IMG/VR virus record: IMGVR_UViG_3300049259_000022
Coordinates: 1-55,505 of that record
Length of the DNA: 55,505 nt
Source: a virus
Strand: one strand, 5' to 3'
The notes under the pieces were generated by a model. That model made no database searches. It had not been told where the DNA came from and saw nothing but the letters and a program-made list of their open reading frames with translations. Numbering within the stretch: the first letter of the stretch is position 1; every line of letters begins with the position of its first letter. The position numbers and the translations under genes were made by a program. This document shows positions 6,285-41,151 of this stretch, one piece after another.

Positions 6285-6432
6285 GTCGCCTCCTTCTACA
6301 GTCACATGTTAGTTTGGTGCGACCAGCGCGAGTGCGGGCGATATCGATGCAGTGCTCGCAGTCATCATCCTGGCAGAAGGTGCAACTCCAGGGGACCGAT
6401 GAGATATCATGACGCTGATCATGGCGTTTCAC
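6247..6432 (-). CDS. Small Cys/His-rich protein
   Basis: 61 residues, starting at ATG 6432 inside the stop of the upstream gene (ATGA). It has C-x2-C (CTFC), C-x2-C (CEHC) and C-x-C (CDC), suggesting zinc binding. The last ~13 codons overlap the next gene out of frame. Start coupling and cysteine spacing support it; no family recognised. Confidence 0.5.
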   Translation of the reverse strand: MKRHDQRHDISSVPWSCTFCQDDDCEHCIDIARTRAGRTKLTCDCRRRRHADVLAMYSRDI

Positions 6433-7022
6433 TGTTTGTCGGGCGGGGGGAACTTAACACCCTTGCCAGCGAACTGATGGCATCCAGAGCAGTCGTCCGG
6501 AGCGTTCACCATCCGGTCATCCAGGTTCGGATACCTCATGTTACAGTTCTTGCAGAACACCTCGCCGTCCTGCTCGATGTTCGAGGTGACGTTATACTCG
6601 TTGCACAGGCGCAGGTACTCAGGGAAGTTCCGGCCGATGATTTTCTGCGCCTGCGCCTCGAAGGCCGCCGCGTCGCCCACATGAAAAGGTGAGCCGGGAA
6701 TCTTGGTCCCCTCGGTGGTCATCTTGGCGTGTTCCGCGTCGATGACCTCCTGCTGCTCCTTGTCGTGATTCACGCCACAGACTACACAGCGTCCATACTT
6801 GAACTTCCGCGTAGCTTGGAGGATGCCGAGCATCTGCGCACCCCAGCCGTTGAAGTTCATGGCAGCCCACATGAGACTGCCGATCTTGTCGAGGGCCTCG
6901 TCGTCTTGCTGATCCAGCCAGAGATGCACCTCATGCGAGATGGACTCGTTCATCACCTGCTGATGCTCGACGAACTGCTGATATTGAGTCAGCGGATCTT
7001 CTTCGTTGCCAGCGGTTGTCAC
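6429..7022 (-). CDS. Hypothetical protein with two zinc-knuckle pairs
   Basis: 197 residues. The N-terminal ~75 residues are helical. A CVVC motif sits near residue 80 and CKNC plus CSGC near residues 157-180, so two metal sites are possible. The centre is charged. It is the first gene after the hairpin at 7041-7084, so it may begin a new transcript or be read through from the SSB-like gene. No family recognised. Confidence 0.7.
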   Translation of the reverse strand: MTTAGNEEDPLTQYQQFVEHQQVMNESISHEVHLWLDQQDDEALDKIGSLMWAAMNFNGWGAQMLGILQATRKFKYGRCVVCGVNHDKEQQEVIDAEHAKMTTEGTKIPGSPFHVGDAAAFEAQAQKIIGRNFPEYLRLCNEYNVTSNIEQDGEVFCKNCNMRYPNLDDRMVNAPDDCSGCHQFAGKGVKFPPPDKQ

Positions 7023-7040
7023 TTGTCTCTCCTAAGAGAC

Positions 7041-7084
7041 GACGGGGACACGAGGGTAGCAGCTCTAGGACTCGTGCCCCCGTC
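7041..7084 (-). terminator. Hairpin after the SSB-like gene
   Basis: The 14-base arms 7041-7054 and 7071-7084 pair with one mismatch around a 16-base loop, just beyond the stop at 7097 in the leftward direction. No strong U-tract follows, so it may be a Rho-dependent terminator, an attenuator or an mRNA-stabilising stem. Confidence 0.5.
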
Positions 7085-7096
7085 TGGGGAGGTGGA

Positions 7097-8425
7097 TCAG
7101 AAGGGAAGGTCGTCGTTGTCAGCGCCAGGGGCAACCGGGACGGAGGCTGCTGGGACAGCTGGGGATGTGGGCACCTGTGCAGACGCAGTAGGAGCCGGTG
7201 CCGCTACAGCCTGCGAGGGGGCAGGCTGCGGAGTAGGGGCCGCGACAGCTGCGGGCGCAGGTGCCGGGACCGGAGCGGGTGTAGGAACGGCCGCTGGAGC
7301 CGGTGGGGTGACGGGTGCGGATGCCACCGGAGCGGGCGCTGGTGGTGCCACAGCGGCCGGTTGCGGTGCGGGTGCGGGCTCCGCTACGGGAGCCGGGGTC
7401 GGCGTTACCGGGGCGGCCTGTGGGACAGGCTGCTGGATAGCAGCAGGTGCCTGCATCGGCTCCTGGTTCGGGAAGGTCTGACCGGCCCACGGGTCGGCAG
7501 AGTTCGGAACAACCTCTCCCTGGACGGGAGCCTGTGCTGCTGGTGCGGGCTGAGCCACAGGAGCAGGTTGCGCGACTGGCGCTGGCTGGGCGGGCTGAAC
7601 GACGGCAACAGGCTGGGCCATTGGCTGCGCTGCGACAGGCTGTGGAGTCGCTGCAGCCGCAGGCTTATCCTCGAATACCCGAGGTTCGCGGGCCAGGAAG
7701 TTCCGCATCTCGATGTAGAGACCGGACCACTCGGCCCAGTTCACGGAGTCCGTCGCGGCGGCGCGCTGGAAGGTGATGTTCGAGTACTCGTTGTCGCCGC
7801 GCTTCAGGAGCTGGAGGCTGATCGTGGTGATGGCCGTGAAGGCCGCCGTCTCTGCTGCCTTGAATCCGCCCAGGTAGTGCTTGGCCGGGGTGATGTTGGT
7901 CTTCGACAGGTTCAGGACGGCCGGAAGGTACTGGCCGGTGCCGAACGGGTCCATCAGTAGAGGAAGCGACCAGACCTCGTTGCAGTACGGCTTGCCGCCC
8001 AGAGGATGCGTATCCCACTCCTTGAGCTTGCAGTCCGCGCAGTTGAATACCAGCTGGCCGTCATCACGCGGCTGGACGTGAGCCTGAGTCAGTTCCGCCC
8101 TGTCATACGGGAACGGCGAGATGGTCTGCTTCAGATTGACGAAGCCTTGTGCGAAGTCGTTCGATCGGCACATCGGCTGCGACTGCTGACCAGCCGGAAC
8201 CTGAGCGGGCCACAGCGTGCGCTGCTTGACCAGCCCGAGGATGATGACGTTCAGCGACTGCATCTTGTTATTCGACAGGCTGTCGCGGAACATTCCCTCC
8301 TTGTTGACGATCTGCAGCCGGGGAATGCTGAGATCCGCCTGGGTCATGTCATCCAGGCCGGTGTTGAACTGGTCGGCCTGAGGTACGGCAACTTGAGTGC
8401 CAGGACCAACGGGTGATACCGTCAT
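7097..8425 (-). CDS. Probable single-stranded DNA-binding protein with SSB-type acidic tip
   Basis: 442 residues. Three parts are visible: a globular N-terminal domain (about 1-245) with a putative metal site (CADC then PYCNEVW); a ~190-residue linker made almost only of Pro, Ala, Val and Gln; and the extreme C-terminus DNDDLPF. The tip closely matches the conserved SSB tail (D-D-D-I/L-P-F) that recruits replication and repair proteins. The N-terminal domain is not an obvious OB fold, so ssDNA binding is inferred from the tip and the replication context. The repetitive linker also opens long spurious frames on the other strand. Confidence 0.65.
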   Translation of the reverse strand: MTVSPVGPGTQVAVPQADQFNTGLDDMTQADLSIPRLQIVNKEGMFRDSLSNNKMQSLNVIILGLVKQRTLWPAQVPAGQQSQPMCRSNDFAQGFVNLKQTISPFPYDRAELTQAHVQPRDDGQLVFNCADCKLKEWDTHPLGGKPYCNEVWSLPLLMDPFGTGQYLPAVLNLSKTNITPAKHYLGGFKAAETAAFTAITTISLQLLKRGDNEYSNITFQRAAATDSVNWAEWSGLYIEMRNFLAREPRVFEDKPAAAATPQPVAAQPMAQPVAVVQPAQPAPVAQPAPVAQPAPAAQAPVQGEVVPNSADPWAGQTFPNQEPMQAPAAIQQPVPQAAPVTPTPAPVAEPAPAPQPAAVAPPAPAPVASAPVTPPAPAAVPTPAPVPAPAPAAVAAPTPQPAPSQAVAAPAPTASAQVPTSPAVPAASVPVAPGADNDDLPF

Positions 8426-10643: not shown

Positions 10644-10822
10644 TAACCTCTCCTCAGAAGAATCGCTGCTTCGAACCCAGGCTGACGCTGTCGGGTGATC
10701 TCGGTCACCCGGTAGATATGATCCTCGGCTGCCATGTAGACCTGTTGGCGGATGACTGGCATATCCTTGAACTCGACAACCCTGTTATTTAGATCGCGGG
10801 GCATTCTCACGAAGATCTTCAC
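10643..10822 (-). CDS. Small hypothetical protein
   Basis: 59 residues from GTG 10822, which shares a base with the integrase stop (TAGTG). Its own TAG overlaps the next GTG the same way. The frame fills the gap exactly. The sequence (VKIFVRMPRDLNN at the N-terminus) is beta-rich with no known motif. Evidence is the perfect fit at both ends; function unknown. Confidence 0.65.
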   Translation of the reverse strand: MKIFVRMPRDLNNRVVEFKDMPVIRQQVYMAAEDHIYRVTEITRQRQPGFEAAILLRRG

Positions 10823-11658
10823 TAGAACTCGACCGCCTTCTTCATGGCTTCCATCTGCGTCTCGGTGTAGATCTGTGTTGTCGTGATCGAGGCATGACCC
10901 AGGAGTTCCTGAACGACTCGGATGTCCTTCGTGTTCATCTGGATGATAGTCGCGAACGTAGCGCGCAGGTCATGACTTGCAATCTCGCACTTGAGACCTG
11001 CGGTCCGACCCATGCGCGTTACAAGACTCCGTGCGGCACGATCCGAGATGGGGCACAGGAGACTGTTATCCTCGAAGGACTCCACGACCGCGCCCATGAT
11101 GGCGGACCAGGCGACGGGTGACACCGGCACATAGCGAACCTTGTCACCCTTGCCATAGACGGTCAGGATCATCGTCTGGATGTTCAGATGGGACGGGCGG
11201 ACCCTCCGTGCCTCGCCTACCCGTAGCCCAACGAGACCACACAGGCCGATGATCGCCTCTTCGTGACAGGACTTAGCTACCGCCAGCAATGACTGGAGGG
11301 ACGACAGGAGCCCCGGGATTGGGTGAGGCAGGGATCGAGGGGGCGTCGGAGCTTTGTACTTCACTAGGACTGGTGGGATCTCCGCCCAGGTAGCTAGGCT
11401 CTTCAGACTCGTGATACGCCTTCTCGTAGTCCTCGGAGAAGCGATCTTCCTCTGGATCGCCAGCCATTCCCGACTCTTCTGATCCAATTCCTCCATCGGC
11501 AGCATCACCATCTGAGGCTTCACTCCCTGTTGCTGCGCCACCCACTCCAGGAACATCCTCAGATCCGACTCGTACCCCTTCGCCGTCGCTTCCGCTAGGC
11601 CATCGTCTAATAACGAACTGCGGTACTTGGCGATAATTTCTTGGGTTAACGTCGTCAC
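10822..11658 (-). CDS. int: Tyrosine recombinase / integrase
   Basis: 278 residues from GTG 11658, which has GGAG seven bases upstream; longer in-frame starts run over another gene and lack support. The N-terminal SAM-like core-binding domain is visible (EATAKGYESDLRMFLEW). All catalytic residues are present: Arg in GLRVGEARR, Lys in YGKGDKVR, H-x-x-R in SHDLRATFA, His in LLGHASITTTQ, and Tyr in QIYTET. The family cuts and rejoins DNA through a 3'-phosphotyrosine. It could integrate the phage or resolve genome multimers. No attachment site was identified. The first 386 bases are overlapped by another open frame. Confidence 0.9.
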   Translation of the reverse strand: MTTLTQEIIAKYRSSLLDDGLAEATAKGYESDLRMFLEWVAQQQGVKPQMVMLPMEELDQKSREWLAIQRKIASPRTTRRRITSLKSLATWAEIPPVLVKYKAPTPPRSLPHPIPGLLSSLQSLLAVAKSCHEEAIIGLCGLVGLRVGEARRVRPSHLNIQTMILTVYGKGDKVRYVPVSPVAWSAIMGAVVESFEDNSLLCPISDRAARSLVTRMGRTAGLKCEIASHDLRATFATIIQMNTKDIRVVQELLGHASITTTQIYTETQMEAMKKAVEF

Positions 11659-12019
11659 CAGATGTCTCCAATGCTTCTCGGGCTTCTCTGTCCCGGAGTT
11701 GAACAACAGGCCTCGCCCATTGAAAGGCGAGGTCCAGCAGCTGTTGAAGCTCGTCGAGCTCGCGCTCATTGAGGTTCGTCAGCATGAGCGTGATACCACT
11801 TCTGGCCCTGGTCGGATTGAACTGCACATGCACATTGTCACCCACACCGAAGTGAGAGTAAGTAGTAAGCGGAGTGCCATCCTCGGCGAACAGGTTTGCC
11901 GGATCCTGAACGAAGACAATAGTCTCGCCTTCGTAGTTATTGACCCAGGCGTATCGCTCGTCTAGCTTCTCGCGAGGAGGACGACGAGGACCTGGTTTCC
12001 ACCTTCTATTGACGGGCAC
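11273..12019 (-). CDS. Hypothetical protein with long acidic tail overlapping the integrase
   Basis: 248 residues. Residues 1 to ~125 look like an ordinary folded domain (basic N-terminus; VHVQFNPTRARSGITLML). From about residue 135 the protein is Gly/Ser/Asp/Glu rich and encoded in a different frame over the integrase start region (386-base overlap). The tail looks like a plausible disordered acidic segment, yet it could be an accident of frame. The start at 12019 is close behind the upstream stop. No family recognised. Confidence 0.6.
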   Translation of the reverse strand: MPVNRRWKPGPRRPPREKLDERYAWVNNYEGETIVFVQDPANLFAEDGTPLTTYSHFGVGDNVHVQFNPTRARSGITLMLTNLNERELDELQQLLDLAFQWARPVVQLRDREAREALETSGDDVNPRNYRQVPQFVIRRWPSGSDGEGVRVGSEDVPGVGGAATGSEASDGDAADGGIGSEESGMAGDPEEDRFSEDYEKAYHESEEPSYLGGDPTSPSEVQSSDAPSIPASPNPGAPVVPPVIAGGS

Positions 12020-27909: not shown

Positions 27910-28869
27910 TCAGCTCTTGCGAGCGCCCTTCGGCTGGCCGTCCTTGGCGTCGACCGGCTCGACGCCCTCGAGGGTGCACTTGCCGGAACGCGGGAACAGA
28001 CGGGCCGACACCGCACCCGGCGACGGAGCCTCGTTGCCGTACTCCTCCGAGTGGTGCGTGACGATCTGCGCGATGGTCAGGAAGTCGCCGGACGCCTTGT
28101 CCGCGAACGCCGCCTGAATGTGCTTGCCGATGTCCCGACGCGTGCCGGTGAAGGGGGCCTTCGGGCCGCCCCCGCCGCCACCCTTGACGCTCTTGCCCTG
28201 CGCCAGCTTCAGCGCACGCTGCGCCAGGGCCGACACCTCGGGCTTCTCGCCCTCGCCGGTGTACTTCGCCAGGGTGTCGACCTCGTTGACGGTCTTCTGC
28301 GCCAGCTCGTTGGCCTTGGTCTGCCAGTCGTCGGACACACCCTCCGGGACGTTCTGCGTCACGTAGCCGTACGCCAGCTGGAGACCGACAACCTGCTGCA
28401 CGAATGCCTCGGTCGGGTCGGACGGGGTCGCGTCGGCCTTCTTGCCCCCGCCGCGCGACTTGGTCAACTCCTGGCGGATGGTGTTGAGCGCCCGAGCGTT
28501 CGGGATGTTGCCGTGCTCGGGGTCCAGGGCCTCCTTGACGCCCTGCTCGATGCTCGCCCGCACCTTGGCCTTGGCCTTCGAGCCGTCGAGCTCGTGGTAC
28601 GCCTTGATGACCGGCTCGAGCTGGGCGGGCGCGAGGGTGCCGGTGGACTGGTCCATCTCGGCCAGCGCGACCTTCAGGGCCTCGTCGAAGCCGGTGGTGT
28701 CGATGACCTCAGGCGCAGCGGCGGCCTGCGGCTCGGTGTTCTCGGTGTTCTGTGGGGTGCTCTGCGCCTGCTCGTCGGCTGGCGCGGTAGCCGTGGTAGT
28801 CACGGTCTCCTCCTTGTTAGATGCGGCGGCCTTCTTGGCAGCTGCCGTCTTGGTTGGCTGACGCGCCAT
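27910..28869 (-). CDS. Paralogue A: helical protein with C-terminal conserved domain, function unknown
   Basis: 319 residues from ATG 28869. The N-terminus is basic and Ala/Lys rich (ARQPTKTAAAKKAAASNK). The body is helical. A Gly-rich linker (KGGGGGGPK) precedes a ~75-residue C-terminal domain. That domain, and much of the body, aligns with the protein at 33223-34014 (shared pattern HI..A....G..LT.AQ+..H.S..YG...PS.GA+.A), so the two are full-length paralogues. Both stand alone with strong leader or terminator structures and a GC-rich codon choice, suggesting high expression. A nucleoid-like or regulatory DNA-binding role is a guess. Confidence 0.75.
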   Translation of the reverse strand: MARQPTKTAAAKKAAASNKEETVTTTATAPADEQAQSTPQNTENTEPQAAAAPEVIDTTGFDEALKVALAEMDQSTGTLAPAQLEPVIKAYHELDGSKAKAKVRASIEQGVKEALDPEHGNIPNARALNTIRQELTKSRGGGKKADATPSDPTEAFVQQVVGLQLAYGYVTQNVPEGVSDDWQTKANELAQKTVNEVDTLAKYTGEGEKPEVSALAQRALKLAQGKSVKGGGGGGPKAPFTGTRRDIGKHIQAAFADKASGDFLTIAQIVTHHSEEYGNEAPSPGAVSARLFPRSGKCTLEGVEPVDAKDGQPKGARKS

Positions 28870-31809: not shown

Positions 31810-32085
31810 CTAGTACTGACAGACTGCGATGATGTCGGACTCATAAGCCCAGATGTGGTTATTCTCGTCAATCTCGACCCACTTGCCCTCGCCGTCCTTG
31901 ACGAGGGCAGGCTCACCTTCCTCGCGAACACCTTCCCACCTGACTGGCTCGAGGTGCGTCCAGATCTCGGTGACTGCGGCTACCTCGGGGTGACCGTTGC
32001 GCAGGTAGCGAACAAGACTGCCCTCGGTGTACGTCAGGCTTGTACCGGGAATGGTGCGAGGCTCGGTTGCGCCTGGCTGGGTCAC
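31810..32085 (-). CDS. Hypothetical protein
   Basis: 91 residues from GTG 32085, overlapping the upstream stop (GTGA). Longer in-frame starts are within the previous gene and are rejected. Beta-rich and acidic, with a C-terminal segment resembling a small all-beta domain (VKDGEGKWVEIDENN). No family recognised. Confidence 0.6.
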   Translation of the reverse strand: MTQPGATEPRTIPGTSLTYTEGSLVRYLRNGHPEVAAVTEIWTHLEPVRWEGVREEGEPALVKDGEGKWVEIDENNHIWAYESDIIAVCQY

Positions 32086-32549
32086 TTGAACTCGCCCCTG
32101 TGGTATTTCTGGATCATGGTGCCGTCCATAGCAGAGGAGCTCCTGTACAGCACCTCCCACTCGAGGCGCGTGACAGGCTTGGAGAACTTCCCGAAGGCAC
32201 CCTGCCAGACCGCGTCTCCGTAGTCACGCTGATGCTTCGGCAGGTTCATCCAGCGCGCCTGGTAATCAACCGGGCCAACCGGCGGCGTGGGCGGCGTGCG
32301 TGTGAGCTCCACGAGCTTCGAGACATGCAGGTACAGGTGCGGGTCACGCAGTACAGCGTCCATCAGGAGTGACTGGACCTCGTCACCGATCTCATCGCCA
32401 TTCTCGTCCAGATCCTGCGGGCTACTGTGCCCCGCCTGATACAGGAACTCCACAACCAACTCGGACGCCTCGTCAACGCGTTTCTGCGACAGGTCATCCA
32501 ACGCCACCCATTGGGCGGGCAACTTCGGCAGCTTCATGGTTCCATTCAC
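32082..32549 (-). CDS. Hypothetical protein, first gene of a leftward operon
   Basis: 155 residues (ATG 32549 after GAGGGG; ATG 32537 is an alternative). Helical and acidic in the first 80 residues, with a Pro-rich middle and a polar C-terminus. No family recognised. The ~650-base gap upstream suggests a promoter close by. Confidence 0.65.
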   Translation of the reverse strand: MNGTMKLPKLPAQWVALDDLSQKRVDEASELVVEFLYQAGHSSPQDLDENGDEIGDEVQSLLMDAVLRDPHLYLHVSKLVELTRTPPTPPVGPVDYQARWMNLPKHQRDYGDAVWQGAFGKFSKPVTRLEWEVLYRSSSAMDGTMIQKYHRGEFK

Positions 32550-32559
32550 CCCTCGTCAT

Positions 32560-33172
32560 CTGTGGCCAGGTCATGGGGCTGGCCCACATGTCCATTCTAC
32601 GGCACACTGGTTAGGCTCTCCTAACAACCGATAGCATACACTTTACTATCGGTGACCAGAGTGTGACAGGCACAGCTAGTTGCCTAGCGCAACCAGTTAT
32701 CGCCTGGCCACGGTAGACAGTGTTCTACGCCGGGTGCCGGGGGTACGTCATGCCTGAACCAGGTGCCGTTGGGTGGTCGGCTAGAACATGGCCTGACTGG
32801 CCCGCAATGGGGGCTAGGAGACGCGTTCACGCCTTCCCGGTAGGTGGGGGCCGGTACGGGGGTTGAGTCCGCCAGGCGGGCACACACGGCGTGTGATGTG
32901 GGGACCGGTGGTGATGTCGGCGGGCTAGCGGCTAGGGCATGTGGTGATCGGGCCACAATGGGGCCGCTAGGGGGCGCTGGGCGGGTGATGCACACATGGG
33001 CGTAGGTGGCATGTAGCGACCCGTTAGGACGGCACGTAGGGGCTAGGCGTCAGGTGTGCATGAGGCGTGTGGATTGTCCACGGGATGCTGGACATTGCAT
33101 ACTGGATACACCAGGTGTGTCGGCGGGCACGGGGGTCGTATGCGGGAGACTGTATACAGTCACATGACAGAG
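32560..33172 (-). other. Gene-poor 0.6-kb gap with hairpins and one iteron-type palindrome
   Basis: No convincing gene; a 103-codon minus frame (32684-32995) is Pro/Ser/Arg rich without a ribosome site. Stem-loops: TTAGG-CTCT-CCTAA (32611-32624) and ACCGATAG/CTATCGGT (32627-32634 with 32646-32653). The plus strand of the rest is strongly G-rich. The region probably holds the promoter of the 32549-29272 operon. Confidence 0.4.
32679..32693. repeat. Satellite copy of the iteron palindrome
   Basis: GTTGCCTAGCGCAAC matches the GTTGC-n5-GCAAC half-site structure of the array at 36026-36316. It lies in non-coding DNA. It supports a sequence-specific binding protein acting at several sites. Confidence 0.6.
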
Positions 33173-33222: not shown

Positions 33223-34014
33223 TCAGGCGAGCCGGTAGCCCTTGACCTTGGCGTCGTTGACGACGGACTCGATGCCGTCCATCTCACGGCCGTACGCCGC
33301 ACCGATGGCACCGACCGAGGGCGAGTCGTCCGGACCGTACGCGTCGGACCGGTGGTTGCGCACCTGGGCGCAGGTCAGGATGGTGCCCTTGGGGGCCGCG
33401 TCCAACGCGGAACGGATGTGCGCCTCGACGGACCGCTGCGGGCCGGTACGACGCGAGCCGGACTTGACGACGGCCAACTTGGCGGCCAGGGACTGCGCCG
33501 ACTTGCGCTCGTCATCGGTCAGGTTCGTCAACCGCTCGAGCATGGCGTTCGTGACCTCGTCGCCGTGCGCCTCACGGAACGTGGCCCGTGCTGTGGCGGA
33601 TGCCATGGACAGCGCGGCCAGGTGGATCACGTAGCCGTCGGCGGGGTCAACCTCGACGGGTGCCTTGGTGGTCACCATGACGGCCAGCACGTCGCGCAGC
33701 ACGGCCAGCTTGTCCATGTTGAGCTCGTTCAGCGCGTCGGTCTGGAACTTGTTCCACGCGGACCGGATGGCGGCCTTGCCGGACTTGTCGGCGGACCGGT
33801 ACGCCTCGCCCACGGTGGCCACGTACGCGGCCTGGTCGGTCTCCCAACCGGTGGGAATGACGTAGGCGGGGGTAGCGGCCTGATCGGTCTCAACGGCCGT
33901 CACGGTGGCATCGGTGCCCTGTGCGTTCGGCGCGGCCTGGACGGGTGCCGGGGTCGCGTTCGGCGCGTCGGCGGGGGTGGAGGTGGTGCTGGCCTTGCGG
34001 GTACGTGCGGTCAT
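33223..34014 (-). CDS. Paralogue B: function unknown
   Basis: 263 residues from ATG 34014, with TAGGAG nine bases upstream in a leader shared with the next gene. The first ~50 residues are Ala/Thr/Pro rich and disordered. The remainder aligns with paralogue A at 27910-28869: the helical segment around AYRSADKSGKAAIRSAW and the C-terminal domain AHIRSALDAAPKGTILTCAQ. It is a single-gene unit with a strong terminator and is probably highly expressed. The C-terminal domain may be a small winged helix (guess). Confidence 0.75.
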   Translation of the reverse strand: MTARTRKASTTSTPADAPNATPAPVQAAPNAQGTDATVTAVETDQAATPAYVIPTGWETDQAAYVATVGEAYRSADKSGKAAIRSAWNKFQTDALNELNMDKLAVLRDVLAVMVTTKAPVEVDPADGYVIHLAALSMASATARATFREAHGDEVTNAMLERLTNLTDDERKSAQSLAAKLAVVKSGSRRTGPQRSVEAHIRSALDAAPKGTILTCAQVRNHRSDAYGPDDSPSVGAIGAAYGREMDGIESVVNDAKVKGYRLA

Positions 34015-34130: not shown

Positions 34131-34145
34131 GTTGCCGGGGGCAAC
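34131..34145. repeat. Satellite copy of the iteron palindrome (perfect)
   Basis: GTTGCC-GGG-GGCAAC has perfect 6-bp arms and equals the consensus of the array at 36026-36316. It is in the gap between the genes ending at 34170 and starting at 34014, where an operator would be expected. By the same reasoning it could be an isolated binding site of the origin or partition protein. Confidence 0.65.
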
Positions 34146-34695: not shown

Positions 34696-35862
34696 CTAGA
34701 TGGAGTAGTGCGCGTCCAGGGTGTCGGAGTAGGCGGGGTAGTGGACGTTGGCGGGCTCGTAGGTGTCGTAGGGCATGCCGATCACTAGGGCGGCGTACGC
34801 CTGGCCGTCGGTGCGGAACGGGTGACCGAACGCGGCCATGAGGTCGGTGTAGTCGTGCACCATGGCTGCCACGTCGACGCGTAGGACCGTGCGGTAGGTG
34901 TCGCGGTGCATGGGTACGCGGGTGACTACGCGGGTGTAGGTGGCGGGGGCTACGGGGCCGAGCTCGCCGTAGTTGAATCGGTGCGACGTGCCGGTGAACT
35001 CGTTGCCGTTGGCATCGATGTGCTCGGCGTGCGTGTGGCCGAACGGGGCGATGCACGCGCCGTAGCCCGCGTAGGTGTGGCTGCACGTAGGTGCCCCGGC
35101 TTGCGCCCAGGAGACGGCCGTGACCAGGGTTGCCTCGAGGTTGCGTGCGTAGGTGCGGTAGTAGGCGTGGTCTGCGGCGACGTAGGTGATGGTGTCGCCG
35201 GTACCGTCGTCGGTGGCAACCCAGGCGTGGTTGACGTCGGTGCGCGTGGTGACGTAGGTGCCGTCGTCGTAGGTGTAGGTGCGGGTGACGATGCCACCAC
35301 CGGCGATGGCGGTGTAGTCGGTGCACGTGGACCGTACGCCGTCCATGTACCGGGCCAGGCTAGTGGTACCGGTGTAGGTGGTGTAGGGAGTCATGGTGGC
35401 ACCAGCGGCCTGCGGGGTGGTGTTGGTGATGATGCGGACGGGTGCCAGGTCGGTGTCGAAGGTCGGTGTCGCGGCGTGTGCGGGAACGGTCGGCGCACCG
35501 TAGGTGTCGTGTCCGGGCATGGGGGACGCGTAGCCGTAGCCATCAGCGGTCTGGATGAACGACCTGGCCGCGTCCACGGTGGTGATGGCAACGCCGTAGC
35601 GGGTGCGTAGGGCGATGGGCTCGTCGGTGTAGGTGGGTGCGGGAGGCGGGGTAGGCACGGTGCCGTCTGATTGGCCATCGATGGTGTCGCACACGATCTC
35701 GTAGGTGTCGGTGCCGGGGGTGGCCTGTGCGCCGTAGCAATGGCCGCTAGGGGCCTCGTGGGTACGCATCCAACGGTGTGCGCCGTCGTAGGTGCGGTAG
35801 CCGCTACGGACAACCACGGGTGCGGTGTGGTCGGTGGTGTGGGTGTGTGTGTGGATCGCCAT
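34696..35862 (-). CDS. Lysine-free, Thr/Tyr-rich protein of unknown function
   Basis: 388 residues from ATG 35862 (AGGGGCACAACC upstream). There is no lysine anywhere and leucine is scarce. Thr, Tyr, Ala, Asp and His dominate. About fourteen Thr-Tyr dipeptides occur, encoded by repeated ACC-TAC. The N-terminus is MAIHTHTHTTDHTAP. No signal, membrane helix or known motif. Cysteines are few. The plus strand here is strongly G+T rich, unlike the rest of the window, which points to a distinct origin or selection against certain codons. The open frame, ribosome site and terminator support a real gene. Confidence 0.7.
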   Translation of the reverse strand: MAIHTHTHTTDHTAPVVVRSGYRTYDGAHRWMRTHEAPSGHCYGAQATPGTDTYEIVCDTIDGQSDGTVPTPPPAPTYTDEPIALRTRYGVAITTVDAARSFIQTADGYGYASPMPGHDTYGAPTVPAHAATPTFDTDLAPVRIITNTTPQAAGATMTPYTTYTGTTSLARYMDGVRSTCTDYTAIAGGGIVTRTYTYDDGTYVTTRTDVNHAWVATDDGTGDTITYVAADHAYYRTYARNLEATLVTAVSWAQAGAPTCSHTYAGYGACIAPFGHTHAEHIDANGNEFTGTSHRFNYGELGPVAPATYTRVVTRVPMHRDTYRTVLRVDVAAMVHDYTDLMAAFGHPFRTDGQAYAALVIGMPYDTYEPANVHYPAYSDTLDAHYSI

Positions 35863-36025
35863 GGTTGTGCCCCTAGGTGTGTAGGTAGGTGGTGGTGCAT
35901 GTGTGTGCCTAGGAACAACGTAGGCGTCAGGCGTAGGTGTGTGTAGGTGCGCGCACCTTATTCACAAGATCGATACCACATCGTGACCTGACGATCAGTC
36001 ATGTGGTGGTGGCTGTGTGTGCTTA

Positions 36026-36316
36026 GTTGCGTTAGGCAACAGTATGAGGAGTTGTTGCAAAGGGCAACGAAAGTCTATCTATTCTTGCCTTTGGCAACGA
36101 CTTTGTTGTAGACATCCCACAACTCGATGCCTTGGGCAACAATGCACCTTATTGATGCCTTTGGCAACGATTACGCGTGCCGTAGGCAACTGTTGCTAAA
36201 GGCAACCGATAACGTACATTATCGGCGGGTTATATGATGCCTTATGCAACGAGTTTGATTGCCGATGGCAAACACCTTGGTTGCCCTTGGCAATCGATAT
36301 GGTTGCACCTGGCAAC
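36026..36316. repeat. Array of eleven 15-bp palindromes (iteron-like)
   Basis: Copies start at 36026, 36054, 36084, 36126, 36154, 36176, 36192, 36236, 36258, 36280 and 36302. The consensus is GTTGCCnnnGGCAAC; most copies keep the right half GGCAAC exactly and vary in the left. Spacings are 28, 30, 42, 28, 22, 16, 44, 22, 22 and 22, so most sites lie on one helical face (22 is about two turns). The array is gene-free and is followed by AT-rich DNA. Read as origin iterons, or a centromere-like or operator array for a phage protein. Confidence 0.8.
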
Positions 36317-36395
36317 AAAGAAAATTCCGACCGGGGGTATGTGCGCGCGCCCTTAGGCGCCTCGTCCACATATCAAACTTTTCGGCTCTAAGACT

Positions 36396-36411
36396 ATAAT
36401 AGTACTATCAT
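36396..36411 (+). promoter_or_regulatory. Copy of the TAG-TR-CTATCAT motif
   Basis: ATAATAGTACTATCAT differs from the palindrome at 14368-14383 at only a few positions (right half identical). It is between the palindrome array and the TA tract. Possible promoter or operator. Confidence 0.4.
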
Positions 36412-36867
36412 CTATCTGTACAACAGGTCCCGTCCATGTGAACGATCTAGCGTCCAGGAGACAAGAAGAGGACTGGTCACTGTAGTATATATATATATAT
36501 ATATATTACTTATATTTCTTACATTTATTTGGGGTATATTTCCCGGGTGATTTCTAGGCGTGTTTCCGCAGGTCACGGCCATGTTCTCGGTTTGTTCCGG
36601 TTTCCTCGGACACCATACATCCCCGGCACCTTGTTCATCAGGCGACAGTCTTCCCTATGGCCGCATTCACTCAGCAGTTGTCGCCTCTTTTTCTTCTCTC
36701 TTTCTTGGTGCTCTTGGGTATCTATTAGGACCCCGAAATATTAAATTCGATTTTCGGCCCAAAGGTGCCCCGTGACCTGCACAGATGTCCGAAAATGACC
36801 GCCCGGATTTATTCCCCATAAAATGCTTCTGGGCACCCCACTTTATCGCCCGGACTAAACTGACTGT

Positions 36868-37501: not shown

Positions 37502-37995
37502 GAGACGGCTACCTTGTCGGCCAGGAACGGTGTCAGGGAAGCTCCTTGTCGCTCAAAGGCTTGTTCGACCTCCTCTAGCAGCTCATCTGCAGCTGCATAT
37601 TTGGGGCTGCGCTTGGTGCCCTGATGGATGCGCATGCCTTCCCGATGGGCGCGACGGCAAAGAAGACCTCGACACCCCATCGTGTAGGTAGACCGTGATG
37701 CGTGCTGATTGAATCCAGGCTGACGGATCTCACTGATGATGTGATCGATCATTCGCTGGCGAATTTCTCCGCGAGACTGCAAGATGTAGGTGTCTATGCT
37801 TGTCGCAGGAAAGATGTCTTGCGAGCCATCTTCACGAGGAAAAACTGCAAAGTGGATGTTCTGAGTGGGGTCCCAGACAATCTCGCACTTGGTGTACGAG
37901 CAAGCAAGGCGGATGATATCATCGGCATCTTGGGCGAGTTTTGAGTGGCGTACGGCTACCTCTCCAAGCCAAAGAAGATTTGAACTGTCAGGCAT
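37498..37995 (-). CDS. Hypothetical protein of the replication operon
   Basis: 165 residues from ATG 37995, overlapping the helicase stop by eight bases. Helical, with CRGLLCRRAHREG near residue 110, a C-x4-C plus His that may bind metal. The C-terminus is helical and acidic/basic. Its location suggests a replication accessory role only. Confidence 0.65.
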   Translation of the reverse strand: MPDSSNLLWLGEVAVRHSKLAQDADDIIRLACSYTKCEIVWDPTQNIHFAVFPREDGSQDIFPATSIDTYILQSRGEIRQRMIDHIISEIRQPGFNQHASRSTYTMGCRGLLCRRAHREGMRIHQGTKRSPKYAAADELLEEVEQAFERQGASLTPFLADKVAVS

Positions 37996-40063
37996 GCTTG
38001 ACACTTTGGTATCCCTGGGGAGGGCGACCACGGGTACCGGTCGCAAGTTTGAAGGGTTCGACCTGGTCGGCGTCCATGAGTTGTTTGAGTGCATCATTCA
38101 CCTGCTTATCGCCGATATTCTTGGTTTTAAAGGCGTCGCGGATTTGCGTCCGCGTAGGACCGCGACCCATCTCGAGCTCTTTGCGGCGGATATAGTTAAA
38201 GATTCTGTCGATGAATTCTTGCTGCTGTGATTTGCCAATTTGCGCACCGACGAGCTTGAATGTCGCGAGGACATAAGGGTGAAGACGCTCCACGAACAGA
38301 ACATCTTGTATATCAGCAAAAAGGGCACGTCGATTGATCGCGTGACAGAACATTAGCTTCTTGTAGTGAATTTCCAGGCGACTCAGCATGTCGTCGTCTG
38401 TTATTTTGAGCATGGCCTCAATCGGCCGGAAGAACCTCTTGAATTCAGCTCGCGCACTATCCGTCACGCCGACGACGACCGGAGGGTCTGTCGGATTCTT
38501 CTTGAGGTGTGCGATGTGGATGCCGTTAAGAATGAGCTCGGCGGGGCGTAGATTGACGTTCGTATCATTGAAGTAATCATCGCGAGGCTTCGACGGACCG
38601 GCTACATACAACCATCTGTTCAAATAGCCTGACGCCGAGTCCTGGCCGTCCAGGAGCTTGCGGAGTGCTCTCGGCTGGCTGGAAGTACTAAAGGCGGCGA
38701 ACGCATTATAGGCTACTTTCCGTCCATGCGTCTGGCTTGAATTGGAAATTTTCGGCTTACCGTCGATGAAGTCCATGATCTTCGTTTTCAACGTTGATCC
38801 CTGGACGGAAGACTTTGCAAGAAGGCCAGATAGCTCACTGAACTCTACATAGCCGCGAATAGGCACATGCCCAGTAGCTGACCCCTTGACGATTTGCTGG
38901 AATTCACCAATCAGCGCTTCGCCAGATGCTACTTCACCAACCTCGCGAACACCCTCGACCAGGATTCCTAGGTCGTTCTCTGGCATTGCAAAGTTAAGAG
39001 CTCGAGAAACGAAAGCCTGTGCGGTTGACTTGCCTGATCCGGTGCGCCCTAGGTAGCAGATTGCCAGATTAGGCATGACGGGGCGAGTGCCATCCGCCAT
39101 AAGAGTATCTCGCCCAACGGCTAGCCCAAGAAGCATGAGACCACTGAAGAAGTGATACTCCTCTGGGCTATAGTCCAGACTAGTGGCATCGCACCACTTG
39201 TATAGGAAGGTTTCCTCGTAGCCCGCCAGTGCTTCTCGCCAGTCGAAGCTCAGCGAATATGACTCCGAATCCAGCTCCGGATCGTATGCGTCGACTTCGG
39301 GATCAATGCTGATGACTTGCGCGACAGAGTTATCAGCAGGCTGATCCACCTCCTCTGGAGCTTGTACAGGTTCGGCGAGTGGGATCTGTGGCACAAGAGA
39401 CAGGTGAGATCCAGTCGGCGGGACGGGCGGCAATACAGCTTGATGAGGGGCAGGCAATGACGCTTGTTGTGGGGCAAGTACCGGAGGGGGTGGAGCAGGT
39501 GTAGATACAACGACCGGCGGTACGAGGTCATACCCGCCTCCTAGCTTTTCCTTGAACGAATAGCCCAGGTCTTCGCCCATGGCACGCCTGAGCTTGTGAA
39601 ATAGTGCGCCCCTCTTGTAATCGGGAACCGGGAGACCGTGATGATATGCAGCGATGTCGTAAATATCGCCGCCTTGCATTCCGCAAGGTCCACAGACCCA
39701 TGTATTATTCTCAGTATTGGCCCATGCCGATGGATTACTGTCTCGATGTCCTGGAATAGGACATGAGATCTTGATACCTTCGGTTCGGCCGGATGTGATA
39801 ACTGGTGTCATCTTTCCGCACCAGCGATTATACGCTTCAATGATCCCGATACCCTTGAGGATTCTGTCGAGTTCGAGTTCCTCTTCGCTGCGTTCGCGAG
39901 ACGAATCAACATCAGGAATCAAGACTGGATCAAACTGATGAACAGAGGGGGCTACTGGAGGTGTAGGAGATAGTTCTGGTGCTTCAGTAGAGGTTTGTGC
40001 GGCTCGTTTGGCATCTTCTCGAGCCTGATACTCCATGGCTTTCTTGAGAAGATCACTTGGCAC
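37988..40063 (-). CDS. Primase-helicase: zinc finger plus P-loop ATPase
   Basis: 691 residues from GTG 40063. A CHC2-like zinc finger is visible at C101, H106, C124, C127 (CPIPGH ... CGPC), as in DnaG- and T7 gp4-type primases. A Pro-rich linker (about 180-240) follows. The ATPase region has Walker A GRTGSGKST (339-347), and downstream text resembles DUF3987-type replicative helicases. It probably recognises DNA or a primer through the zinc finger and unwinds DNA at the fork. It is preceded by a primase-polymerase-like gene, so primer synthesis may be split between the two. Confidence 0.8.
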   Translation of the reverse strand: MPSDLLKKAMEYQAREDAKRAAQTSTEAPELSPTPPVAPSVHQFDPVLIPDVDSSRERSEEELELDRILKGIGIIEAYNRWCGKMTPVITSGRTEGIKISCPIPGHRDSNPSAWANTENNTWVCGPCGMQGGDIYDIAAYHHGLPVPDYKRGALFHKLRRAMGEDLGYSFKEKLGGGYDLVPPVVVSTPAPPPPVLAPQQASLPAPHQAVLPPVPPTGSHLSLVPQIPLAEPVQAPEEVDQPADNSVAQVISIDPEVDAYDPELDSESYSLSFDWREALAGYEETFLYKWCDATSLDYSPEEYHFFSGLMLLGLAVGRDTLMADGTRPVMPNLAICYLGRTGSGKSTAQAFVSRALNFAMPENDLGILVEGVREVGEVASGEALIGEFQQIVKGSATGHVPIRGYVEFSELSGLLAKSSVQGSTLKTKIMDFIDGKPKISNSSQTHGRKVAYNAFAAFSTSSQPRALRKLLDGQDSASGYLNRWLYVAGPSKPRDDYFNDTNVNLRPAELILNGIHIAHLKKNPTDPPVVVGVTDSARAEFKRFFRPIEAMLKITDDDMLSRLEIHYKKLMFCHAINRRALFADIQDVLFVERLHPYVLATFKLVGAQIGKSQQQEFIDRIFNYIRRKELEMGRGPTRTQIRDAFKTKNIGDKQVNDALKQLMDADQVEPFKLATGTRGRPPQGYQSVKHA

Positions 40064-40328
40064 GCTCTTCCTCCGTTAGTGAAACGGCCTTTGTGACATC
40101 AGGCATAATCCTTGAGAACCAATCAGCGAAGCACCAAAGGTGCATCCTGAGGATAACTTTATCGAACTCCCATTCCCAGGATTGATGCTTTCGTTTGATC
40201 TTCTTCCTACACCAAGTACAGTGTCCACCTGATTCATTAAGCTCGATACCGATAGTGGAGATGCGGTCAGATGGTGTGGCAGGAGCGATAAGTTGAGTAA
40301 TCAACTCATCGAAGCTCTTTCTAATCAC
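40053..40328 (-). CDS. Small zinc-binding protein between primase genes
   Basis: 91 residues from GTG 40328, overlapping the primase stop. C-x2-C (CTWC) and a later LWC with His give a probable zinc site. The N-terminal part is helical. It may be a primase cofactor by position. Confidence 0.65.
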   Translation of the reverse strand: MIRKSFDELITQLIAPATPSDRISTIGIELNESGGHCTWCRKKIKRKHQSWEWEFDKVILRMHLWCFADWFSRIMPDVTKAVSLTEEERAK

Positions 40329-41151
40329 GGAAAGGGTCCCCCATTTCAAGCACTCTAGCCTGGTCGGCATGCGGTCGAAGGTCCGTCATTCTCCCCCCCA
40401 TATCGATGAAGAATGTTGGATCAGTTGTTTTACGGTTTCTGCCCAGCGGCAGGCGCATCAGATTCCCTAGATCCTTTCCAGCGAGGGAATCCTGTTTGGG
40501 GAATACCTCGATTTCAAAGTTTGCATATCCGGAAGTAGGATCTTCATTGACGTGTTTATAGAAGTTGTCGCCCCGCGTGGGTGTATACTCTCGAGAAGCC
40601 ATGATTGCGATCTTCGCCGCTTCTCGCACCTCGGAAGCAGCCATGAGACCAGTGAATCCATAGACATGGATTCCTTTGCCGCCGGTGTACGTCACTGCGC
40701 AGGGTAATTGAAGATCTCTGGTGATAATCTTTGCGAACTTAGTTCCGATCATCTTCATCTGATACTTATACCAGGCGCGCGAAGGATGCGAGCGGTCGCG
40801 CCACTCATCACGGGGCGAGCCCGAATAGATCTGGAAAGCCTCGCCTTCGCGAAAGTCGATCCAGGTTCCCGCGCCCTTTACGAGGTCAACATCGAAGGCA
40901 AAGAGCTTGCAGTTTCCGTCCTGATCAAGCATGTAATGCCCGTAGGTACGCTCGCCGGACAGATGCTGCTGCAGATGAGTCATCTTGAATCCGACGGGGC
41001 CGTAGGGGGCGAGTTTATTGGTCCCCTTTTCGGCGTCGATCTCTGCAAGGCGGCTATCGGGGCAGTAAGTGCCATCATCGAATTGGATCGCCTTGACATC
41101 CCGCCTTGTGATAAACTTTTTGGCGAGTTGAACAGCGAGATCTTCTGCCAT
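40321..41151 (-). CDS. Archaeo-eukaryotic-type primase/polymerase (AEP) domain protein
   Basis: 276 residues from ATG 41151 (GGAG upstream). Two AEP signatures are visible: FAFDVDL near residue 95 (the D-x-D metal site) and TGGKGIHVYGFTG near 165 (the G-x-x-G-x-H-V nucleotide-binding motif of LigD-Pol/PriS-like enzymes). Such enzymes make primers and can act as polymerases. It heads the leftward replication operon, with the zinc finger/helicase protein downstream. Confidence 0.82.
   Translation of the reverse strand: MAEDLAVQLAKKFITRRDVKAIQFDDGTYCPDSRLAEIDAEKGTNKLAPYGPVGFKMTHLQQHLSGERTYGHYMLDQDGNCKLFAFDVDLVKGAGTWIDFREGEAFQIYSGSPRDEWRDRSHPSRAWYKYQMKMIGTKFAKIITRDLQLPCAVTYTGGKGIHVYGFTGLMAASEVREAAKIAIMASREYTPTRGDNFYKHVNEDPTSGYANFEIEVFPKQDSLAGKDLGNLMRLPLGRNRKTTDPTFFIDMGGRMTDLRPHADQARVLEMGDPFRD

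Follow-up and report, generated by a model that had tools for sequence, protein, structure and literature searches.

A palindrome array around a conserved core in a phage genome: a probable site-specific recombination locus

The window analysed here, meaning the whole stretch of DNA, is a 55,505-bp IMG/VR virus record in which a run of short palindromes lies in non-coding DNA, with a helicase operon on one side and a leftward gene starting at 35862 on the other. The question raised by this locus is what such a run of palindromes is for. The initial annotation had proposed a new replication origin or a partition site. The two features on which the answer turns are:

36026–36316, no strand assigned: array of eleven GTTGCC-N3-GGCAAC sites, proposed accessory or operator sites around the core, with homologous arrays in G001 (L005), G002 (L008) and G014
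36206–36225, no strand assigned: proposed 20-bp recombination core, CCGATAA-CGTACA-TTATCGG, with conserved arms and a variable 6-bp centre

The palindrome array and the element in its gap

The 15-bp element, GTTGCCNNNGGCAAC, is present eleven times in gene-free DNA, as had been annotated, with one or two mismatches in each copy (starts at 36026, 36054, 36084, 36126, 36154, 36176, 36192, 36236, 36258, 36280 and 36302). No copy within the array is perfect, and one perfect site is found outside it, at 34131. The count is far above chance, as 2000 dinucleotide shuffles of 35900–36480 gave a mean of 0.033 copies and a maximum of 2, against the 11 observed. The better conservation of the right half was also borne out; over three related arrays the half-site mismatches number 14 in one half and 34 in the other, the right half (+ strand) being the better kept. 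The site spacings are, in order, 28, 30, 42, 28, 22, 16, 44, 22, 22 and 22 bp. Thus, the two spacings of 28 and the one of 44 had been read correctly, whereas 22 occurs four times and not five. As 16, 28 and 30 are not whole turns, the even helical phasing claimed for the array is limited to its inner part.

Among the changes in the GTTGCC copies, 46 are one-sided and none is compensatory. This pattern argues for protein sites on duplex DNA rather than RNA hairpins and, at the level of sequence, fits a protein dimer on duplex DNA. RNA hairpins were rejected on the same count, and the only Rfam matches are tRNAs. Clustering far above chance, conservation in four genomes and one-sided changes together support a cis-acting, protein-bound site for DNA transactions, which is the part of the earlier proposal that stands; a role of the array as origin or partition site was not supported.

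Protein searches yielded two close relatives, L005/G001, with a helicase 64% identical, and L008/G002, with a primase 82% identical; in both, the array occupies the position that it has in the window. The more distant G014 (primase 48%, TerL 58%) was found by the array motif alone, in a blind search for exact site pairs. Its array, with 10 sites in 6401–7300 against 0.06 simulated, adjoins the lowest-GC DNA of that genome.

The 44-bp gap in the array of the window is filled by a further palindrome, CCGATAACGTACATTATCGG (36206–36225), which had been overlooked. In the alignment of the window, L005 and L008 it is this palindrome, and not the array, that is the best-conserved element of the region. 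A scan of relatives recovered CCGATAR-N6-YTATCGG in the window, G001, L008, G003, G005, ReqiDocB7, Perlina and GordDuk1; L010 has a degenerate version, and in every case the palindrome occupies the non-coding gap downstream of the helicase. The arms are near-invariant, their sole variation being a symmetric A/T to G/C change adjoining the centre (GordDuk1 has perfect arms of 12 bp), and the 6-bp centre has 11 different sequences among 12 phages. The core is unique in the window genome. In Xer and Cre systems the arms are bound by the recombinase and the centre needs only to match that of the partner site. Conserved inverted arms around a variable 6-bp centre therefore point to a tyrosine-recombinase core of the Xer type (dif/lox-like), and on these sequence features the palindrome is very probably a tyrosine-recombinase site.

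Core and array also appear to be spaced as one unit. The distances from the core centre to the sites are kept in the window, G001 and L008 at −93.5, −71.5, −49.5, −27.5, +16.5, +32.5 and +53.5/54.5, with the −93.5 site missing in G001, the +16.5 site abutting the core arm and the outer sites drifting. In G014 the core sits inside that genome's own array, which is looser in arrangement and departs from the fixed distances. Elsewhere the core is flanked by other palindromes, namely TTAGAAC-N4-GTTCTAA in G007, CGACTAGTCG in G003, AATG-N6-CATT in ReqiDocB7 and GACTTAC-type repeats in L010. No obvious array of the GTTGCC kind accompanies the core in GordDuk1, GMA3, Camerico and Jumbo, and an array is thus not a requirement in all lineages. 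Judging from these patterns we lean, with modest confidence, towards an array that is accessory to the core.

The tyrosine recombinase and its co-occurrence with the core

A core of this type calls attention to one gene of the window:

10822–11769, minus strand: Xer/Cre-like tyrosine recombinase of 315 aa with R-K-HxxR-H-Y catalytic residues, the proposed enzyme for the core

Its product matches Pfam PF00589 (E 1e-24) and is the sole tyrosine recombinase encoded in the window. It also matches the NCBIfam XerC, XerA and XerD models, below the equivalog cut-off, and its nearest solved structures in the PDB are XerC-like, XerA and XerD. The full catalytic set is kept in all 11 of the aligned phage recombinases. 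There is one PF00589 match per phage genome, in place of the two cooperating recombinases, XerC and XerD, that mark Xer/dif; a partner may come from the host.

Judged by primase and helicase, the nearest named phages infect or are named for Gordonia, Rhodococcus and Tsukamurella and have genomes of 73–84 kb, ReqiDocB7, GTE7, TIN2 and Monty being examples. Recombinase and strict core occur together in 13 genomes, three of which are closely related phages, and in all 13 the core has the same location, on the downstream side of the primase-helicase operon; both G007 and G014 have the pair. Seven genomes, with GTE7, TIN2, GMA7 and Monty among them, have neither. No large genome has the core alone, and four (Reynauld, Trogglehumper, Mbo2 and G006) have the recombinase without a strict core, a convincing variant being seen only in Reynauld and Trogglehumper. 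For eight genomes the outcome was predicted beforehand from the presence or absence of a homologous enzyme, and all eight behaved as expected: both elements were found in Camerico, GMA3, Jumbo, Gmala1 and GordTnk2, and neither in SteveFrench, Austin and Adgers. Fisher's test on the first 23 genomes gave p 0.0013, a value uncorrected for the kinship of these related genomes. When 58 window proteins were compared, only the recombinase was both shared by all ten of the large relatives compared that encode such an enzyme and missing from GTE7, TIN2 and Monty; the fragment G001 gave no match for it.

A tyrosine recombinase with a single site in the genome could also be the integrase of a temperate phage, with core and array as its attP. 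The enzyme does belong to the integrase family and the site is unique, as noted. This makes little headway against the other observations, as the recombinase gene (10822–11769) is 25 kb away from the site (36206) and so is not adjacent to it, the enzyme is small and Xer-like, and the centres differ among phages. Moreover, no lysogens could be obtained of GordTnk2, Gmala1 and GordDuk1, phages with the same core and enzyme, and their XerC-like gp72 was suggested to be a general recombinase in replication and not an integrase (PMC4563357). We regard the attP reading as very improbable.

Terminal repeats and the origin question

In two isolates the core is found twice. The direct terminal repeats of Camerico (316 bp) and Jumbo (370 bp) are exact, and each repeat contains one core. 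The terminal repeats of Reynauld and Trogglehumper, which are mentioned in PMC13313380, hold core-like palindromes, GGCGGATA-CAGCGG-TATTCGCC in the 362 bp of Reynauld and CGCATAA-CGATGG-TTATGCG in the 330 bp of Trogglehumper. Therefore, two of the four exceptions have a variant at the expected place. Monty, which lacks the recombinase, has a 191-bp terminal repeat with no core. In all five isolates the repeat ends 43–44 bp past a GGGA[CT] block, a possible packaging-cut signal, and a comparable block is found in the window:

36320–36337, plus strand: conserved block GAAAATTCCGACCGGGGG at the array edge, a possible packaging-cut signal by analogy with the GGGA[CT] block of the five isolates

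By the same analogy the physical end of the window phage would lie near 36360, with the array filling the terminal repeat. No terminal repeat was found at the ends of the window record, which may be incomplete.

What the sequences themselves show is the core with its conserved arms and variable centre, the way its occurrence follows that of the recombinase, its presence in each terminal repeat of two isolates and the fixed array-core geometry. On this basis, array and core are probably a phage site-specific recombination locus that circularises the genome or resolves multimers, with the array as an accessory. The core, with its two inverted arms and 6-bp crossover region, would be bound and recombined by the phage's own enzyme. 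Two copies of the site would arise through terminal repetition of the linear genome, predicted for the window phage, or through multimers, and recombination between them would close the incoming genome into a circle or resolve the multimers. Dimers of a winged-helix regulator, encoded by host or phage, would occupy the GTTGCC-N3-GGCAAC sites to either side of the core, where they may build a synaptic complex or license recombination.

The surroundings of the array speak to the question of an origin. The elements concerned are:

36396–36411, no strand assigned: conserved, separate palindrome ATAATAGTACTATCAT (ATGATAGTACTATCAT in relatives)
36480–36530, no strand assigned: AT-rich stretch within the island of highest AT content in the window, a candidate unwinding element for an origin module of its own
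36568–36575, minus strand: TGACCTGC element, forming an inverted pair with a second copy at a distance of about 205 bp
36773–36780, plus strand: TGACCTGC element, the other arm of the pair
37988–40063, minus strand: helicase gene adjoining the non-coding region (context)
40321–41151, minus strand: AEP-type primase gene (context)

Under an origin reading the copies would be iterons for a phage initiator that melts the AT-rich DNA and loads primase and helicase, and the core would be unrelated. The annotated setting held up, as these directional repeats adjoin the most AT-rich DNA of the genome, downstream of the primase-helicase operon. In each large relative checked the most AT-rich 300 bp lies in this region, recombinase-less phages included. 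The TGACCTGC element occurs in this non-coding DNA in 13 of 14 genomes, whether or not they encode the recombinase, and frequently as two inverted copies 164–254 bp apart beside the AT-rich island. Against an origin role of the array stand GTE7, TIN2, GMA7 and Monty, which have the same primase and helicase families and the AT-rich island and lack the core and any comparable palindrome array in the sequence examined. As these phages keep the replication genes without the array, the array tracks the recombinase and not the replication genes. No initiator-type Rep gene was recognised, DnaA boxes are not in excess, and GC skew as an origin mark was inconsistent and confounded by gene strand. Thus, the most likely role of the region is, on the sequence evidence, circle closure or multimer resolution, with a replication origin less likely, and the iteron reading of the array itself is unlikely. 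The AT-rich part of the non-coding region, as distinct from the array, is a plausible candidate for an origin.

A centromere or partition site of a plasmid-like phage is suggested by phased repeat arrays, which are generally known from such sites. Neither a ParB_N (PF02195) nor a ParA-type AAA_31 (PF13614) match was found in the window or in four relatives, and we give this reading hardly any weight.

Other features of these regions were observed in passing. L005 has repeated copies related to the 36396–36411 palindrome, and in the close relatives of the window the sequences flanking TGACCTGC seem to be complementary for about 20 bp, and L008 shows matching changes there. LexA-like boxes, CGAACNNNNGTTCG, occur in or beside such non-coding regions in ReqiDocB7 (70117), Perlina (67057) and Monty (340) and also in L010 (about 12324), L020 (about 4261) and L021 (about 2822); the window has none.

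Candidate binders and relation to known systems

Sites of the array type are also found singly, and one phage protein was considered as a binder:

32679–32693, no strand assigned: isolated site with 1 mismatch, about 130 bp upstream of the gene at 32082–32549
33223–34014, minus strand: PHROG 6708 protein with a winged-helix-like C-terminus, weak candidate array binder
34131–34145, no strand assigned: perfect GTTGCC-N3-GGCAAC site standing alone, upstream of the PHROG 6708 gene

At the place in L008 homologous to the 32679 site there is a perfect pair with 22-bp spacing. These sites suggest that the array binder also regulates transcription, and GTTGCC sites, single or paired, that precede other genes or occur in other phages fit a transcription regulator. 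The array could accordingly be a plain operator cluster, in which a regulator controls the leftward operon from 35862, the sites at 34131 and 32679 are further operators and the core is a separate matter. In favour of such a cluster are the perfect or near-perfect sites that stand singly before other genes, the pairs of this motif ahead of MFS-transporter or MarR genes in actinobacterial chromosomes, and the recurrence of AATG-N6-CATT-like sites in ReqiDocB7 intergenic regions. What it accommodates poorly is eleven sites over 290 bp in a rigid geometry centred on the core and not on a promoter, together with unrelated palindrome arrays around the same core in other lineages. We therefore consider an operator cluster rather unlikely, and return to a recombination locus as the preferred reading.

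The chromosomal pairs are exact, 26–29 bp apart, and were seen upstream of MFS-transporter and/or MarR genes in L107, L115, L123, L129, L130, L132 and L139. On account of these pairs GTTGCC-N3-GGCAAC can be called MarR-operator-like. E. coli marO has a similar half-site. The array differs from MarR-family operators in its eleven copies, and no phage-encoded MarR (MarR_2, PF12802) was matched in the 12 records searched, so that a host regulator is a possible binder. PHROG 6708 was rejected as a universal binder, since it also occurs in the array-less GTE7 and TIN2, and other lineages do not have their own array motif upstream of its gene. Its predicted model is poor outside the winged-helix-like C-terminus, with non-significant PDB matches. 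The window has two paralogues (27910–28869 and 33223–34014), and the family is present in most of these phages. In another phage group, L020, L021 and L141 have intergenic pairs or clusters of the motif at 22-bp spacing near a TTGACCT element; the terminase of L021 is nearest to Streptomyces phages, and no such core was recognised in the sequence seen of these three.

In phage P1, the tyrosine recombinase Cre acts at loxP in the terminal redundancy, and recombination circularises the genome. From what is generally known of that system, the locus is alike in having a phage-encoded tyrosine recombinase and inverted arms around a short variable spacer; a site in the terminal redundancy is shown by position for Camerico and Jumbo. 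It differs from loxP in its 6-bp rather than 8-bp spacer, its shorter conserved arms and an enzyme nearer Xer than Cre; the recombinase gene is also far from the site, and the core is flanked by a palindrome array, which loxP does not need. The 6-bp centre and the ATAA...TTAT inner arms are as generally known for dif, and by analogy the accessory DNA around the core may resemble the regulator-bound accessory DNA of plasmid cer and psi. Unlike these Xer sites, which use XerC plus XerD, the locus would use one phage recombinase; its arms are nearly symmetric, and accessory sites of a lineage-specific motif lie on both sides of the core.

A long non-coding region with multiple inverted repeats was described in 2015 in GordTnk2, Gmala1, GordDuk1, GTE7 and ReqiDocB7, where it was called unusual and given no function, and no lysogens were reported (PMC4563357). 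It is the same genomic place as the region studied here, and four of these five phages, all but GTE7, have the core. The core, the recombinase link and the 22-bp array are not described in that paper. Our literature search, with subscription journals largely outside its reach, returned no paper linking recombinase, core and terminal repeats in these phages.

Taken together, we raise as a tentative proposal, held with rather less than even confidence, that these loci form a widespread, undescribed class of circularisation loci: in a large group of actinobacterial phages the terminal repeats would contain an Xer-like core of fixed arms, which several lineages would each have surrounded with a different array of regulator-type operators, here MarR-like, and a possibly host-encoded regulator would control or build the complex. 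The recombination reading offers a testable function for the non-coding region noted and left unexplained in 2015, and connects it to a recombinase that carries an integrase annotation although no lysogens could be obtained of the phages concerned. If this reading is right, Cre/lox-like circularisation would be common in this phage group, accessory arrays would be exchanged around a constant core, and the phages would be a source of new, small recombinases paired with sites of differing centre for use as genetic tools.
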